Assembly (NCBI GenBank): GCA_002781365.1
Contig: PETN01000037.1
Span: forward strand, 20,319-84,318
From: Sulfurimonas sp. CG01_land_8_20_14_3_00_36_23
Lineage (GTDB): Bacteria > Campylobacterota > Campylobacteria > Campylobacterales > Sulfurimonadaceae
DNA: 64,000 bases
Reading direction: 5' to 3'
Of the stretch, positions 3,422-51,224 are shown piece after piece; positions within the stretch are counted from its first letter, which is position 1; each line of letters starts with the position of its first letter. The notes under the pieces are model-generated. The model was not told the origin of the DNA. It ran no database searches and saw only the letters and a list, made by a program, of their open reading frames with translations. A program made the position numbers and the translations under genes.

Positions 3422-5182
3422 TCAAAGCAGCGTACTAATCGAAATATTGTTTGAAGCATTTTTTGCAACTTTTTTTTGAAGAGATAAAATGTTGTTTATA
3501 TCTGAGCTAGATCGATTGGATGTTTTTTGCTCTATAAATATTGCGGATGCACTTACAGTTGAAAGTGGAAATTTTTTCATATTTCCATCCCTGTCTTTAC
3601 TTACAATAGACTCTTTTTCTCTATCTTCTAAAGAGTAAAATGATTTGACATCCTCCGTAAAAATTTTAATAATAAGGAGTATCTTTTCTATAAATTGTTT
3701 GCTCTCTTCCTCTTTAAACTCTATGGCAATAAAAAAGTCATCTCCGCCAATATGGGCAATAAAAAACTCTTTTGCCAAATGTTTTTTTAGAATCTCTGCA
3801 AACAACAAGATAACTCTGTCTCCATTTCTAAAACCATAAACATCATTAAATGCTTTGAAGTTATCTAAGTCAAAATAGCATAGCATAAAATTGTTTCTAC
3901 TTTTAGAGATTTTTTCAATATACCTCTCAATCATGGTATTCCCAGGAAGTTTTGTTAAAGGGTTCTGTTCTCTTGCAAAAAGGAGGTTCTCCTCATTCAT
4001 TATATTAATAATTGCTCTAGCAGAGAGCCAACCATAGTATTTAGAATTTTTTGTGACAATGGTGCCTATCGCCTCTTTGTTGTTGGAGAAGAGTTCTATA
4101 ATAGTTGCAATATCACTATTTACATCCGTAAAAGAGCAGGGCTTAATGAGATTTTTGAGTTTGGATTTGCTATTGGTGTCATTTTTGATAAGTGAAATTC
4201 CATATGGGGAGTATAAAAAATCTTTAATCTGTTGCTCTTCTATAATCCCAATGGGCTCATTGTCCATATCAACAATTGGAACCACTGAAATCTCTTTGTT
4301 CTTTTTAAAATACTCAACGACATAATCCATTTTTGTTCTGATGTTAATTGGAGCTACTTTAATGAGATGTTTTTTTATATTTGAATCGTTAGCGGAGTCT
4401 CTTTTAGAGCTGTTAATCAATTCAATGATGTCAGCGTAGTTTTGGATTATCTCTATTGGATTGAGTGTTGGTCTTTGAACAAGGTAACCTTGGGCTAAAT
4501 TACAGCCAAGCTCTTTACAGATAAAATACTCCTCTTTTGTCTCAACACCCTCTGCAACTACTTTGATGCCAAGTTGTATGCAGAGATTGATGATGTTTCT
4601 GACAATTAACTTCTTTTTGATATTTTTTTCTATGTTTGAGAGAAAGAATCTATCAATTTTTAAGATGTCAGGTGCACTGTTGTAGAGAAGTTTGTATCCA
4701 GAGTGACCAGTTCCAAAGTCATCCAGAGCGATTGAGAAGTTTTCTTGTTGATAGTGGCTTAAAACAGCGCTTATATCACAGTGTCTTGAAATCTCATGTC
4801 GTTCTGAAATCTCAAAGCAGATATTATCTTTCTTTAAATTGAATTTTTCGAGTATTTTCTCAGTATTACCTGTTTCAAAGTCACTCATCTCAAAAAGACG
4901 GTTATCTAAATTATAAAAGAGTTTCATATCTTCGTAGTGATTTATCTCTGTAAATTTTTGAATCGTCTTTTCTCGTAGGGCAAGGTCAAAAGCATAGAGG
5001 ATTCCCTCATCATACACTGCATCAAAGATATGAAAAATTGATTTAAATCCTATATTATTATGATTTCTTAAAAGAGCCTCGACAGCATATATCTTTCCTG
5101 TATGAATATTGATAATTGGCTGAAATGCTATATCTAAAATTGCTAAGTTCTCAAGCCATTTCGTGGGCAATTTGTTTTTCAT
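3422..5182 (-). CDS. EAL-CBS-GGDEF domain signalling protein (c-di-GMP)
   Basis: EAL motif 'YAVEALLRN', 'LALDDFGTGHSGY', 'KVVAEGVET'; C-terminal degenerate GGDEF 'HIGGDDFFIAI'. Confidence 0.85.
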   Translation of the reverse strand: MKNKLPTKWLENLAILDIAFQPIINIHTGKIYAVEALLRNHNNIGFKSIFHIFDAVYDEGILYAFDLALREKTIQKFTEINHYEDMKLFYNLDNRLFEMSDFETGNTEKILEKFNLKKDNICFEISERHEISRHCDISAVLSHYQQENFSIALDDFGTGHSGYKLLYNSAPDILKIDRFFLSNIEKNIKKKLIVRNIINLCIQLGIKVVAEGVETKEEYFICKELGCNLAQGYLVQRPTLNPIEIIQNYADIIELINSSKRDSANDSNIKKHLIKVAPINIRTKMDYVVEYFKKNKEISVVPIVDMDNEPIGIIEEQQIKDFLYSPYGISLIKNDTNSKSKLKNLIKPCSFTDVNSDIATIIELFSNNKEAIGTIVTKNSKYYGWLSARAIINIMNEENLLFAREQNPLTKLPGNTMIERYIEKISKSRNNFMLCYFDLDNFKAFNDVYGFRNGDRVILLFAEILKKHLAKEFFIAHIGGDDFFIAIEFKEEESKQFIEKILLIIKIFTEDVKSFYSLEDREKESIVSKDRDGNMKKFPLSTVSASAIFIEQKTSNRSSSDINNILSLQKKVAKNASNNISISTLL

Positions 5183-44900: not shown

Positions 44901-45013
44901 TTTGGTTGTTAAGTATCATAGTGCCTACTTTAACTACGCCGTTGACAATCTAGTAAACATATCATAAACTTTTAGATATAATTGAACAAAAAAGTAAGGG
45001 TGGGAATTCTATT

Positions 45014-46849
45014 TTGTTAAACTTAGAGAGTCACAATATGCAAAACCAAAAAATTAAAGAACTTGAGCGAGTTCAAGAATTAAAAAATATATTTCCTGAA
45101 ATTTTTGAAGACGGAAAACTTAATATTGAGAAATTTAAAAATATACTTTTTGACCTAAAAGATAATAAAACAGAACACTACAGCTTTAATTGGAGCGGTA
45201 AAAAAGAGTGTTATAAAATTATCAAAGAGAAGTCAAATGCAACGCTCAAAGTTGATGATGACAAAACTATGCAGGGTGGTGATAATGTCTTTATAGAAGG
45301 TGACAACTTAGAGGTTCTAAAACTTCTTCAAAATGCCTACCACAAAAAAATCAAGATGATTTACATCGACCCGCCATATAATAAAGACAGAGACTTTGTT
45401 TATAGTGATACTTGGGGAGACACTATCACAAACTATCTTATCCAAACAGACCAGCTTCGTGATGAGGGTTACACAAGTTCTAAAACTTCTAGTGTAGGTA
45501 GACGCCACACAAACTGGCTCAATATGATATATCCACGACTTTTGCTTAGTAGAAATCTGCTCAAAGATGACGGAGTGATTTTTGTAAGTATAGATGACGA
45601 TGAGATTCATAATCTTAGAAAAGTTATGGATGAGATTTATGGGGAAGAGAATTTTGTAGAACAAATTATTTGGAAGAGAAGAGCAACTCCACCAAATGAT
45701 AGGGTAATTGGTAGAAATCACGAGTATATTTTAATTTATGCTAAAAGGATTGAGGATTTAAAATTATATTTACAGCCAAGAAGTGAAAAACTTAATTCGC
45801 AATATGATAATCCAGATCATGACCCAAGAGGAAAATGGACTTCATCTGATTTATCAGCGAATGGAAAAGGAAATAGATTAGCTGAAAGTTGTATATTTCC
45901 AATTTTAAATCCAAATGATAACAAAGAATATAATCCTCCTAAAAATAAGTGTTGGCTGTATAATGAAACAAAAATAAAACAATTAATAAATGATGGAAGA
46001 ATTGGATTTAGAAAACAAAGTGGGGCACCATTTCTAAAAAGATATTTATCAGAGGTAAGAGATGGTTCAACCCTTCCAACTATTATTACTGATGGTGGTT
46101 TTTCAAGTGATTCTGCAAAAGAGTTAAGAGAACTTTTTGATAATGATTATTTTGATTTTCCAAAACCAGTTAATTTATTAAAAAAAATATTATTAGCTGG
46201 AACAATTGAAAATGATATTATTCTAGACTTTTTTGCAGGAAGTGGAACAACAGCCCACGCAGTAATGGAACTAAATCAAGAAGATGAAAAAGAAGGAAAA
46301 ATTGGTAATAGAAAATATATCTTAGTTCAACTTCCAGAAGCTACTGATGAAAATAGTGAAGCATATAAGGCAGGATACAAAAAAATCAGCGACATCACCA
46401 AAGAGCGAATTAAAAGAGTCATAAAAAAACTAGACTACAAAGATGGCTTTAAATCATACAGACTTGATAGCTCAAATTTTCAAGTCTTTAAAGAGCTAAA
46501 AAAACGACCAAATGATAGTTTTGAAGATATTATGAAGATGTTAAAGATGAGTGTTTTTAATGAAAACATCTTAACGCAAGGTGCAAAACATCTCGACATA
46601 GTCTATGAAATTGGACTGAAAAATGGGTTTAGCCTAAGTGCAAAAAATGAAGCAATACAAACAGAAAAATATAGTTTTATAAAACTTTTTGAAGAGAATC
46701 GAGAGTTTTATTTTTGTTTCGATAAAGAAATAAAAACAGATATTCAAGAGTTTATACCAAAAGAGGCAAAACTCATCTGTTTTGATAAAGCTCTCACTGA
46801 TAGCACGAAACTAAATCTTAGAGAAAATATAGATTTAGAGACTTTGTAG
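45014..46849 (+). CDS. mod: Type III restriction-modification methyltransferase subunit (beta-class m6A)
   Basis: 'KMIYIDPPYNKDRDFVYSDTW' (motif IV) precedes 'LDFFAGSGTTAHAVMELN' (motif I). Confidence 0.93.
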   Translation: MLNLESHNMQNQKIKELERVQELKNIFPEIFEDGKLNIEKFKNILFDLKDNKTEHYSFNWSGKKECYKIIKEKSNATLKVDDDKTMQGGDNVFIEGDNLEVLKLLQNAYHKKIKMIYIDPPYNKDRDFVYSDTWGDTITNYLIQTDQLRDEGYTSSKTSSVGRRHTNWLNMIYPRLLLSRNLLKDDGVIFVSIDDDEIHNLRKVMDEIYGEENFVEQIIWKRRATPPNDRVIGRNHEYILIYAKRIEDLKLYLQPRSEKLNSQYDNPDHDPRGKWTSSDLSANGKGNRLAESCIFPILNPNDNKEYNPPKNKCWLYNETKIKQLINDGRIGFRKQSGAPFLKRYLSEVRDGSTLPTIITDGGFSSDSAKELRELFDNDYFDFPKPVNLLKKILLAGTIENDIILDFFAGSGTTAHAVMELNQEDEKEGKIGNRKYILVQLPEATDENSEAYKAGYKKISDITKERIKRVIKKLDYKDGFKSYRLDSSNFQVFKELKKRPNDSFEDIMKMLKMSVFNENILTQGAKHLDIVYEIGLKNGFSLSAKNEAIQTEKYSFIKLFEENREFYFCFDKEIKTDIQEFIPKEAKLICFDKALTDSTKLNLRENIDLETL

Positions 46850-46857
46850 GAGATAAC

Positions 46858-48150
46858 ATGTCAAATATAATGCTAGAGAGTTTATATATAGATAACTTCA
46901 AAAGTTTTAAAGATAGTAAGTTTGAGTTTGGAAAGCTTAATTGTTTAATTGCTCCAAACAATACGGGAAAAAGTAATCTTGTAGAAGCTTTAGAGTTTCT
47001 TGATTCTTTAATTTATCAAGATGTTTCTAGAGCTATTGCGAAAGTTGGTTTGCAAAATATTCAAAATATTCATTATGTGGATAATAAGAAGATAGTAATA
47101 AATGCAAAATTCAAAATTCAAAACATGGTTCTACTTACAAATGAACTCATTGATTATAAATTAGAATTGGCATTTTTATTTAGTATGGATTTGAAAGCAA
47201 AAAAACATACTATAGATATTTTAGCAACTGGAAATAAAATTAAAAGTGTCACAATAGACAAGTCTGATTTAAAGTTAGGTTTTATTCCAAGGTTATTTGA
47301 TGATTTTAACGAGGAAGTTAATCATTATAAAACATATTTAGAAGTTTTAAAAAAGAAAAACTATAGAAGTTTTGACTTTGAATATAATCATTCTACTCTA
47401 AGATATAAAATTAATACGCAATATAAAAGTACTGAAAAGTTAATAGAGTCTTTATTTGAGCTAAATATTGATAAGAAAAATGAAACTTTATTTAAACAGC
47501 TGGATTTTAGACTTTTATTTAATAAAAGCTCATTATTCACTTCACATTATTTTCATCCAAATATGATTAAAGAAATACAAAATTCTGGTTATACATATTT
47601 TTTAAAAAATGGAACAAACTTATCTGAGTATTTAAGTATTTTAGATAAAGATGTTTTTGAAGATATATCAACATCATTGATAGGCGAAGTTGAACTTATT
47701 AACTCATTAGAATTGAGGGATAATTTTATAACAGAATTAGTCTTCAATGAAGAGGTAAATAATAAAGCTTATCCCATAAAGCTTCAAAAAATTTCAGATG
47801 GTACAGTTCATTTTGTAGCTGTTATGACAGCACTTATTGGTAATAAACATTCAATAGGAATGATGATTGAAGAACCTGAGAGACATCTACATATGAAAGT
47901 TTTATCTTATATCTTAAAGACTATGAGAGATGATGACAAGCAGATATTTTTTACGACTCATAGTACTGAATTATTATCTCAACTTGAACTTGATGAAATT
48001 ATTTTTATGTTTAGAGATTATAACGGAGATACAAAAGGGATACGGGCTAAAGATATTGAAAATATTAAAAAAATTATGAAAATTTATAAAGATGATTTAA
48101 TTGAGATGATTAAAATTGGTATTTTAGATAACTTAGAGGATGAGTTATGA
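46858..48150 (+). CDS. AAA-family ATPase (RloA/AbiLi/OLD-like) embedded in the RM operon
   Basis: 'LYIDNFKSFKDSKFEFGKLNCLIAPNNTGKSNLVEAL' Walker A; 'GMMIEEPERHLHMKVL' Walker B; 'QIFFTTHSTELLSQL'. Confidence 0.85.
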   Translation: MSNIMLESLYIDNFKSFKDSKFEFGKLNCLIAPNNTGKSNLVEALEFLDSLIYQDVSRAIAKVGLQNIQNIHYVDNKKIVINAKFKIQNMVLLTNELIDYKLELAFLFSMDLKAKKHTIDILATGNKIKSVTIDKSDLKLGFIPRLFDDFNEEVNHYKTYLEVLKKKNYRSFDFEYNHSTLRYKINTQYKSTEKLIESLFELNIDKKNETLFKQLDFRLLFNKSSLFTSHYFHPNMIKEIQNSGYTYFLKNGTNLSEYLSILDKDVFEDISTSLIGEVELINSLELRDNFITELVFNEEVNNKAYPIKLQKISDGTVHFVAVMTALIGNKHSIGMMIEEPERHLHMKVLSYILKTMRDDDKQIFFTTHSTELLSQLELDEIIFMFRDYNGDTKGIRAKDIENIKKIMKIYKDDLIEMIKIGILDNLEDEL

Positions 48151-48662
48151 AAATAGGTTTAATTGTAGAAGGAGATAGTGATAAACTTTTTTTTGAAAAA
48201 TATTTTAAACTTAACTTTAAAAAAAATATCATCGTTGTAAGTCCTGGGAAAAAAGGGACTTGTAGGATTTTAAATAAACAAAATATTCATAAAGACGTTC
48301 AAGGACTTTTAAAAAGAGGATGTGAAAAAGTTTATATTTTAGTTGATTTGGATACACAATGCGATAACAATCGGCAATTCGATTGTATTTTAGAACTTAA
48401 AGAGTGGTATAAAGAAAAAATACAAATTCAAAAACTAGAAAATACTTTGGTAGCAATAGTTGCAAAAGAGATAGAATCTTGGATGTTGTCTGCATGGGAA
48501 AACAGTGATAATAAATCAAAAGAAGATTTTAAGAAGAAATTTAATGAAAAAAAGAAATTAACAGAAGAAGATTTAGTTAAAAAATTCTTATCATCAAAAA
48601 AAGATATTCAAAAAGAAAACAATAAATCTTTAAAATACTTTTTAGAAAAGCTTGGAATATAA
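48147..48662 (+). CDS. Small TOPRIM-like protein (DUF4276/RloB-like, putative)
   Basis: 'IGLIVEGDSDKLFFEKYF' and 'VYILVDLDTQ' (TOPRIM-like E...DxD), 'AKEIESWMLSAWE'; overlaps the ATPase stop codon. Confidence 0.65.
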   Translation: MKIGLIVEGDSDKLFFEKYFKLNFKKNIIVVSPGKKGTCRILNKQNIHKDVQGLLKRGCEKVYILVDLDTQCDNNRQFDCILELKEWYKEKIQIQKLENTLVAIVAKEIESWMLSAWENSDNKSKEDFKKKFNEKKKLTEEDLVKKFLSSKKDIQKENNKSLKYFLEKLGI

Positions 48663-51224
48663 ATGCAAATAAAATACCTAAAACAACCCCATCAAGAAAA
48701 AGCTATAAATTCAACTATAGATATATTTCAAGGTCAACCAAAACAAGATAATCAGTTTGATATATTTGACGGTGAAGCGGTTTGTTTAAATGAACTTTTA
48801 CTATCACAAGATGATATATTGAGCAATTTAAATCAAATACAAAAGTTAAATAATATAGAAGAATCTTTGATGTTTCAAAGCTTGGATTTTTCTATTGAAA
48901 TGGAAACTGGCACGGGTAAAACTTTTGTCTATATCAAAACTATACTCGAGCTTTATGCCAAATATAGATGGAGTAAATTTATCATTATAGTTCCTTCTAT
49001 TGCTATCAAAGAGGGAGTTTTAAATTCACTTGATAGTATGAAAAGTCATTTTAAGAATGAGTTTAATTTTCCGTATGATTATTTTGAATATGATTCTAGC
49101 AGATTGGGCAGTTTAAAACACTTTATACGAGATGATACCTTGCAAATTATGATTATGACAATAGATAGTTTTAAAAGAGTTGGAACTGTACTTAATATGC
49201 CGAGAGAGGGGTTTGTAGGAACTCCAAAAATGAGTTTGCAAAAAACAAATCCTATTTTAATTCTTGATGAACCACAAAATATGGAGAGTGATTTAAGTAA
49301 AACAGCACTTAGTGAGCTAAATCCACTCTTTACCTTGAGATACTCTGCTACTCATAAAAATTATTATAATTTAGTTTATAGTTTGTCTGCAAAAGAAGCC
49401 CTTGATAACGGGCTTGTAAAACAGATAGATGTATTAGCTTTGAGTGAAAATCAAACTATTAATGATGTGTATGTAAATGTACAAAAAATAGAGATAGATA
49501 AATCTTCAAAAAAACCTGTTGCGACACTTGAACTGATAGTAAAAAACAAAGATGATTATGTAACAAAACCAGTAAAAATTAAAGGTGAAGATAGTTTAAA
49601 AGATAAAACAAAAAATCCTATCTATACTGGTTTTCTTGTTGATGAAATATCATATAAAGATATGTTTATAAAATTTGAGAATGGTTTAAAACTAGAGTTA
49701 AACGATGTAAATGGACAAGTAAAAAAAGAGATTCAAAAACAGCAAATCAGTGAAGCTATAGAGCGACATATGAGAAAGTTTGAAGAGCTTAAACTTCAAA
49801 ACATAAAAGTATTGAGTCTATTTTTCATAGATAAAGTTGCAAACTTCTTAAGTGCTGAAAATGGTTGGATGGAAGAGTATTTTATAAATGAGTTTGAGAG
49901 ACTCAAAGTTGCGTTTGAGAGTTTTAAAACTATAGATGCCAAAGAGGTATATGCGTACTATTTTGCAAAAAGAAAAGCTGGGTTTGTCGATGAACTTAAA
50001 AACAGTGATAGTGATAGAAAACTCCAAAAAGATACTTATGACTTAATAATGAAAGACAAAGAGAAGCTTTTGAGTTTTGAGGAGAGTAAAAGTTTTATAT
50101 TTTCACATAGTGCATTAAAAGAGGGTTGGGATAATCCAAATGTCTTTTTTATAACAACACTCAATGATACAAAGTCACAGATGAAAAAAAGACAAATTAT
50201 TGGTAGAGGCGTAAGGCTTCCTGTGAATTCAAGCGGACAAAGAATAGAAGACAAAGATATAAATAGGCTTACCGTAATAGCAAATGAGAGTTTTGATGAG
50301 TTCACAAGAGGACTGCAACAAGAGTATGATATCAATGGAAATGGAAGCCAATATACGAAACCAAACAACTTAGCTAAAGAGAAATACGCCAAAAGAAAAT
50401 ATAATGAAGATGATATAAAAGAGTTTAAAGAACTTTGGGAAAAGCTTAAACAAAAAACTATCTATGAGATACATTTAGATACAACGAAATACAAAGATGA
50501 AGTGAGTGAAAAACTAAAAAATATTGAAGTCAGAGAAAAAAAGATTGTAAAGCAGTTTGGAAATATTGAAAGTAGTTTTGATGGCTATGTGAGTGAGTCA
50601 AAAAGTACTAAGGTTGATGTTGAAGAGGAGTTGCCAAATATTGTAACAGTCATTGAAAAACATATTGCTCTTTCAAAACAAACAATTATTGAAATATTTG
50701 AAAAAGTCGGTATAGAAAAATTTACAAAAGAGTTCATAAAAAATAGCGACTCTTATATAAAACAAGCAATTGAAGCTTTTGAAGATGTAATGTTTTCCAT
50801 GTTAAGCAAAAGTGGATTGGTTTATAAAAAGATAGATGATTATTATGAATTTGCCAATATTTTCCCTGAAGAAATTTCAGGGTATAAGTTAGAAGATTGT
50901 AGAAAAGGGCTTTACGAAGCTGAACAATATGATTCGGATATTGAAAAGAATTTTATAAATTGTACTGATGCAAATGACTACAAGATTTTCACTAAACTGC
51001 CTAATAAATTTAAAATAAAAACTCCTCTTGGCACTTACAACCCTGATTTTGCCATAGTGAAACTTGATGAAAGTGAGGGTAGTTTTATTGTTGAGACAAA
51101 AGGTAGCGATAAAAAAAGGGACTCTCGTTCTCGTGAAGATTGGCAGATAGAATATGCTAAAAAGCATTTTGAATTAATAGGTCTGAAATATAAAGATAGA
51201 GTTACTAATTGTAGGGAAATATAA
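48663..51224 (+). CDS. res: Type III restriction enzyme Res subunit
   Basis: 'SIEMETGTGKTFVYIKTI' Walker A, 'LILDEPQNMES', 'KEGWDNPNVFFITTLNDTKSQMKKRQIIGRGVRLPV', C-terminal PD-(D/E)xK-like 'NPDFAIVKL...FIVETKGS'. Confidence 0.93.
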   Translation: MQIKYLKQPHQEKAINSTIDIFQGQPKQDNQFDIFDGEAVCLNELLLSQDDILSNLNQIQKLNNIEESLMFQSLDFSIEMETGTGKTFVYIKTILELYAKYRWSKFIIIVPSIAIKEGVLNSLDSMKSHFKNEFNFPYDYFEYDSSRLGSLKHFIRDDTLQIMIMTIDSFKRVGTVLNMPREGFVGTPKMSLQKTNPILILDEPQNMESDLSKTALSELNPLFTLRYSATHKNYYNLVYSLSAKEALDNGLVKQIDVLALSENQTINDVYVNVQKIEIDKSSKKPVATLELIVKNKDDYVTKPVKIKGEDSLKDKTKNPIYTGFLVDEISYKDMFIKFENGLKLELNDVNGQVKKEIQKQQISEAIERHMRKFEELKLQNIKVLSLFFIDKVANFLSAENGWMEEYFINEFERLKVAFESFKTIDAKEVYAYYFAKRKAGFVDELKNSDSDRKLQKDTYDLIMKDKEKLLSFEESKSFIFSHSALKEGWDNPNVFFITTLNDTKSQMKKRQIIGRGVRLPVNSSGQRIEDKDINRLTVIANESFDEFTRGLQQEYDINGNGSQYTKPNNLAKEKYAKRKYNEDDIKEFKELWEKLKQKTIYEIHLDTTKYKDEVSEKLKNIEVREKKIVKQFGNIESSFDGYVSESKSTKVDVEEELPNIVTVIEKHIALSKQTIIEIFEKVGIEKFTKEFIKNSDSYIKQAIEAFEDVMFSMLSKSGLVYKKIDDYYEFANIFPEEISGYKLEDCRKGLYEAEQYDSDIEKNFINCTDANDYKIFTKLPNKFKIKTPLGTYNPDFAIVKLDESEGSFIVETKGSDKKRDSRSREDWQIEYAKKHFELIGLKYKDRVTNCREI

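Follow-up and report, generated by a model that had tools for sequence, protein, structure and literature searches.

The locus described here raises the question of why an ATPase gene and a gene for a small TOPRIM-like protein should lie between the methyltransferase gene (mod) and the restriction gene (res) of a Type III restriction-modification (RM) operon. It occupies positions 45,014 to 51,224 of a 64,000-nucleotide (nt) stretch of Sulfurimonas sp. CG01_land_8_20_14_3_00_36_23 (assembly GCA_002781365.1, contig PETN01000037.1, positions 20,319 to 84,318), which we refer to as the window. We propose, with a probability of roughly 60%, that this is a Type III restriction operon with an exchangeable abortive-infection-type module in its mod-res junction, and that the module acts as a second layer of defence. 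The four genes are given below in window coordinates, with protein lengths in amino acids (aa).

45014..46849, + strand: mod, Type III DNA methyltransferase, 611 aa; TTG start, with an in-frame ATG at 45038
46858..48150, + strand: OLD/PtuA-type ABC ATPase, HEC-01A-like, 430 aa (Pfam, PADLOC, profile and Foldseek matches)
48147..48662, + strand: DUF4276 / TOPRIM-like protein, HEC-01B-like, 171 aa (Pfam DUF4276, HEC-01B and hhalign)
48663..51224, + strand: res, Type III restriction subunit (helicase and PD-(D/E)xK endonuclease), 853 aa (Pfam, PADLOC)

By domain content, the locus is a Type III RM system. Mod matches Pfam N6_N4_Mtase (2.6e-37) and PADLOC MTase_III (1.6e-163), carries a DPPY motif followed by FAGSG, and belongs to a gene set that adjoins Res. 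Res matches Pfam ResIII (1.5e-14) and RE_endonuc (1.3e-31) as well as PADLOC REase_III (6.3e-190), and combines superfamily 2 helicase domains with a C-terminal PD-(D/E)xK endonuclease domain. The open reading frames (ORFs) are packed exactly as an earlier note on this DNA had reported, with an 8-nt gap between mod and the ATPase gene, a 4-nt overlap between the ATPase and small-protein genes, and a gap of 0 nt before res. The single tight operon proposed in that note is supported by this packing and by two further genomes with the same gene order; because the order recurs, the four-gene arrangement is more than chance.

Including the window, the full order mod-ATPase-TOPRIM-res was found in three genomes, at different chromosomal sites. 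The other two loci, L003 (a Campylobacterales metagenome-assembled genome, MAG) and L004 (a Sulfuricurvum MAG), are 64% identical to the window in mod, 68% in the ATPase, 72-77% in the TOPRIM-like protein and 79% in res. Parts of the operon were recovered from two Sulfurimonas loci: L002, from the same genome as G239, holds the ATPase gene (67% identical to that of the window, with its tail changed too), a diverged partner gene and res (83%), and L007 holds mod, its contig ending early in the ATPase gene. The conservation with Type III RM on which the earlier note had made its reading depend was therefore observed.

The genes flanking the four-gene operon differ among its integration sites. 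When the upstream half in L007 is combined with the downstream half in L002, a single site emerges, flanked by genes of 1041 aa and 234 aa; homologues of these two genes lie 9 nt apart in the window's own genome (L127). Joining the evidence from two genomes, we deduced that L127 is an empty site. The differing flanks and this putative empty site indicate that the operon is mobile as a unit. A second, unrelated Mod-like methyltransferase was seen split across two contig ends of the window's genome (L126 and L127, contigs C99 and C6), close to the site that holds the HEC-01 Type III operon in relatives.

The gap between mod and res was then surveyed with a Res search of 398 Campylobacteria genomes, which returned 37 matches in 35 genomes. 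Four matches, at contig ends or in another gene order, were not judged. Among the 33 resolvable mod-res junctions, 16 contain additional genes and 17 have none; a single genus (g19) supplies 12 of the empty junctions, not every one of which was opened individually. Cargo of a known or candidate defence family occupies at least 12 of the 16 filled junctions, and the genomes concerned (G numbers) carry the following:

Window: HEC-01
G239: ATPase and diverged partner; at a second locus, PDC-S02 and RhuM
G350: PDC-M04AB
G221 and G238: AbiD
G015: PDC-S02 and Abi_2
G009: PifA/KAP
G109: Schlafen AlbA_2
G234 (L083:3518-5286): Pycsar cyclase and transmembrane (TM) effector
G029: PDC-S06, RhuM fragment and Fic
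G031 (L095:2678-8269): whole CBASS operon (patatin effector, CD-NTase, E1-E2, JAB) and Schlafen AlbA_2
G195: MNT-HEPN
G237: RhuM
G348, two loci: pentapeptide/TM protein; NA37 plus an unknown

As a small control, seven flanking genes were compared with PADLOC, and none matched below 1e-4. Outside the phylum, three of nine plasmid Type III loci had defence-like cargo in the mod-res gap, namely PDC-S02 in Chryseobacterium, HEC-05 (BrxU type) in a planctomycete and a DUF262 protein in Rhizobium. In view of these many other cargoes, we rejected the notion that only the ATPase-TOPRIM pair uses the slot. Judged from gene content, the space between mod and res resembles a slot in which modules for a second layer of phage defence can be exchanged; the presence of very different modules in the same slot of relatives argues for such a layer and not for a partner built for this particular Mod-Res. 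Cargo boundaries vary, some being scarless or overlapping and others leaving up to 145 nt, and a check of the slot borders in the window revealed no repeats or inverted repeats of note.

One locus bears traces of how a junction may be built. At L078, a 55-bp exact direct repeat of the res start (3433-3487 and 4667-4721) flanks the Abi_2 gene, and a decayed piece of res follows the copy on the far side of that gene. This suggests that incoming cargo together with its res replaced an older res by recombination. Two further arrangements were recorded in the survey. In L094:7116-8956, mod is seemingly broken into two frames and the slot cargo (PDC-S06) is intact. A layout of large helicase, DUF4391-like protein, mod and res recurs in L085, L104, L106, L132, L133 and L134 with an empty mod-res gap.

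The DNA specificity of the host system also appears to change under the pair. Low-identity blocks mark the following region in Mod:

45731..46213, + strand: probable target-recognition region of Mod, approximately residues 240-400

Against L003 and L004, this region shows 22-50% identity per 40-aa block, compared with 60-90% in most other blocks, and its core is 12-32% identical to G221 and G350. Comparison of the window with L003/L004 shows this probable target-recognition region exchanged and the pair retained, which indicates that the pair can accompany more than one DNA specificity. A search of mod for phase-variation repeats found none.

The ATPase matches Pfam AAA_21 (3.1e-18), its best PADLOC match is HEC-01A (2.3e-34), and profile and Foldseek searches returned PtuA, OLD, GajA and Rad50/SMC heads. 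The earlier note had called it an AAA ATPase; the ATPase assignment stands, and the AAA_21, HEC-01A and structure matches place it in the ABC/OLD-type class and not in AAA+. Conserved in it are the Walker A residues N34, G37 and K38, the signature SDGT (313-316) and E339. Two parts depart from this conserved frame:

47098..47562, + strand: hypervariable central domain of the ATPase, residues 81-235, candidate sensor (divergence, model confidence)
47968..48147, + strand: C-terminal tail of the ATPase, residues 371-430, candidate docking site for the TOPRIM partner (tail-partner co-variation)

Over residues 81-235, the window and L003 are 47% identical, and L003 and L004 only 46%. Elsewhere, L003 and L004 are close to each other (res 94%, mod 89%, ATPase tail 98%, nucleotide-binding lobes 83-89%); at the DNA level, their identity is 52-67% across window positions 47054-47533 and 82-97% over most of the remainder. 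The predicted model of the ATPase has low confidence at residues 125-193 and 208-213. A fast-changing middle domain within a conserved ATPase suggests a candidate sensor.

The tail behaves differently, in that its identity tracks that of the TOPRIM partner and not that of the ATPase body. G239 compared with the window has 86% identity in the ATPase body (301-370), 50% in the tail and 27% in the partner; for G303, the corresponding values are 59%, 83% and 76%. Because the tail goes with the partner, as a docking site would, the last 60 residues of the ATPase are likely the site at which the TOPRIM partner docks.

For the 171-aa protein, the two motifs pointed out earlier were located at residues 8-12 (EGDSD) and 67-71 (DLDTQ), and E8, D67 and E110 are invariant across 19 relatives. 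It matches Pfam DUF4276 above the cut-off (4.2e-9), and its best PADLOC match, a weak one, is HEC-01B (4.7e-11); Pfam Toprim and OLD-like TOPRIM reach 0.01, below the cut-off. Aligned by hhalign with OLD-family TOPRIM domains gathered from Campylobacteria, it gave P=3e-6 (5e-7 for a close subfamily), compared with P=0.06-0.76 in three control alignments, and the alignment places E8 on the TOPRIM Glu and D67-x-D69 on DxD. The link to the DUF4435 (AriB family) profile is weak (P=1e-3), with all three acids aligned. The AlphaFold model, with a predicted local distance difference test score (pLDDT) of 75.7, has an alternating order of strands and helices. Single-sequence and profile comparison with PDB sequences gave nothing convincing (Retron Ec67 TOPRIM, E=0.31). 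On the profile evidence, TOPRIM homology of the small protein is likely. In the diverged partner at L002:1249-1800, 27% identical to that of the window, DLKTE replaces DLDTQ.

Overall, we provide a putative mechanism for the composite operon. Mod and Res would restrict unmethylated phage DNA, and the embedded ABC/OLD-type ATPase would sense an infection cue via its hypervariable middle domain. Given ATP, the ATPase would release or activate its partner, the small TOPRIM-like nuclease held at the C-terminal tail; this nuclease would then cut nucleic acid (RNA or DNA, of the cell or the phage) and halt the infected cell. The pair may work alone, its position in the operon providing co-expression and co-transfer with restriction, and it would act as the next layer once restriction has been evaded. 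Of these steps, we infer the nuclease activity, the trigger, the formation of a complex and the abortive outcome. The pair is most likely an autonomous abortive-type module, because relatives occur outside RM. In G303, whose genome has no close mod or res, a close relative of the pair adjoins a Fic gene (L086), and many standalone ATPase-DUF4276 pairs occur away from any adjoining Type III RM; the pair would thus not need Type III RM. At L086:7558-10018, the TOPRIM-like protein is 96% identical to that of L003, the Fic gene replaces res, and the downstream context is the same as in L003. In a plasmid search for close relatives of the pair, all ATPase matches were below 60% identity and the small protein had none; viral contigs searched with the ATPase gave no match.

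Several points weigh against this proposal. HEC-01 is a candidate system, and our literature search found no experimental report on it. The putative sensor role of the middle domain is read from divergence alone, and the tail-partner pattern comes from two informative genomes (G239 and G303). The earlier note's TOPRIM-like partner was upheld by profile comparison (P=5e-7 to 3e-6); Foldseek of the 171-aa model (pLDDT 75.7) against PDB gave generic alpha/beta matches, none below 1e-3 and none of them TOPRIM, and was uninformative. Additionally, many DUF4276 relatives lack the second Asp of DxD, which the window protein has, and catalysis may therefore be atypical.

Among the alternatives, the one that survives best is that the pair guards restriction, the ATPase monitoring Mod-Res or its phage inhibitors and the TOPRIM nuclease firing only when restriction is blocked. 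The location inside the operon fits this idea, the L094 slot carries an AAA_13 protein that matches PrrC weakly, and precedents offer an analogy: PrrC is embedded in the Type Ic RM system EcoPrrI (PMC12707154), and PARIS is triggered by Ocr (PMC12839542). However, some close relatives of the pair, such as that in G303, lack mod and res, many unrelated modules use the slot, and the target-recognition region of Mod differs among the genomes that keep the pair. We consider guarding unlikely. A more general form of it, in which the mod-res junction is a dedicated, widely used docking slot and whatever abortive module it holds is functionally coupled to Mod-Res status, strikes us as quite unlikely. 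If it were true, the ATPase middle domain would sense phage anti-Type-III-restriction proteins, and the domain used as bait could reveal that counter-defence class.

It is highly doubtful that the pair is a non-abortive helper nuclease that processes Type III cleavage ends or cuts invading DNA with modified sites. The ATPase does resemble Rad50, SMC and OLD proteins that handle DNA ends, and it has the operon position that such a helper would need; however, roughly one in two of the resolvable mod-res junctions has no cargo and is presumed functional, and the slot cargo consists mostly of abortive-type modules. That the pair is a passenger or selfish cargo of no defensive role, gathered by recombination at a permissive junction of the kind recorded in L078, is hardly probable, since defence families dominate the cargo but not the flanking control genes, and the reading frames and catalytic motifs of the pair are intact at 67-77% identity.

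Among known systems, the autonomous module that we favour comes closest to HEC-01 (Hma-embedded candidate 01, PADLOC), which likewise consists of an ABC-type ATPase followed by a DUF4276 protein and both of whose profiles match. However, HEC-01 is named for its position inside Hma systems, whereas the window pair adjoins mod and res, and the small protein is shorter than HEC-01B (171 aa versus 188-204 positions) and matches it weakly. The earlier note had likened the pair to AbiL/RloAB or PARIS, which did not hold for the small protein. PARIS (AriA-AriB) also joins an OLD-type ATPase to a separate TOPRIM nuclease, and the window motif pattern of E, D and ExE resembles DUF4435; nevertheless, the AriA match to the ATPase (1e-21) is weaker than that of HEC-01A, and membership was rejected because the small protein has no DUF4435 (PF14491) match at E<=1. 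AbiL and RloA-RloB share the plan of an ATPase with a small TOPRIM-like partner; Rlo stands for restriction-linked ORF, and RloA-RloB is known from RM loci. Membership was rejected here as well, since the window protein has no RloB PF13707 match, although one distant member of its family does. An OLD class 1 nuclease or Gabija was ruled out because the ATPase and TOPRIM are two separate ORFs and not fused. The ATPase resembles MAD3 and the small protein mad4, as in the mad3-mad4 pair of MADS, but MAD3 scored 57 bits against a cut-off of 420 and no other MADS genes are present.

Defence genes embedded in RM or BREX systems are already established, and the mod-res case adds Type III restriction to this "embedded defence" theme. 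In Type I RM, exchange of DarTG2 and an ATPase pair takes place between hsdS and hsdR (PMC12255303), in a fixed RM-operon gap like the present one, although of Type I and with other cargo. TOPRIM-OLD-ABC dyads have been proposed as BREX backup effectors (PMC12839542); they share the embedding of an OLD-ABC ATPase and TOPRIM pair in a methylation-based system, which is BREX and not Type III RM. TgvAB lies within Type I RM (PMC11411939). The HEC and PDC systems were named in guilt-by-embedding work, as cited in PMC12988326. Our literature search turned up no report that treats the mod-res gap of Type III systems as a slot; the guilt-by-embedding preprint (Payne et al. 2024, 10.1101/2024.01.29.577857) may include it. 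The slot offers a natural comparison, in which homologous mod and res genes (55-94% identical) hold different defence modules in the same gap, and thereby a way to test whether such a module, once embedded, relies on the restriction system that hosts it. Moreover, the hypervariable centre and the partner-specific tail of the ATPase are two concrete elements that can be mutated.

Outside the four genes, the sequence upstream of mod contains promoter-like matches:

44942..44982, + strand: two overlapping sigma-70-like promoter matches (TTGACA-17-TAAACT and TAAACA-17-TATAAT)

Matches of this kind are not enriched in the region (40 observed versus 38.5 expected from shuffles), and their reading as a promoter is suggestive only. 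Downstream of the operon lie transporter genes, which in the relative G415 have their own two-component system upstream of them; the ortholog of the window's response regulator sits elsewhere in G415.

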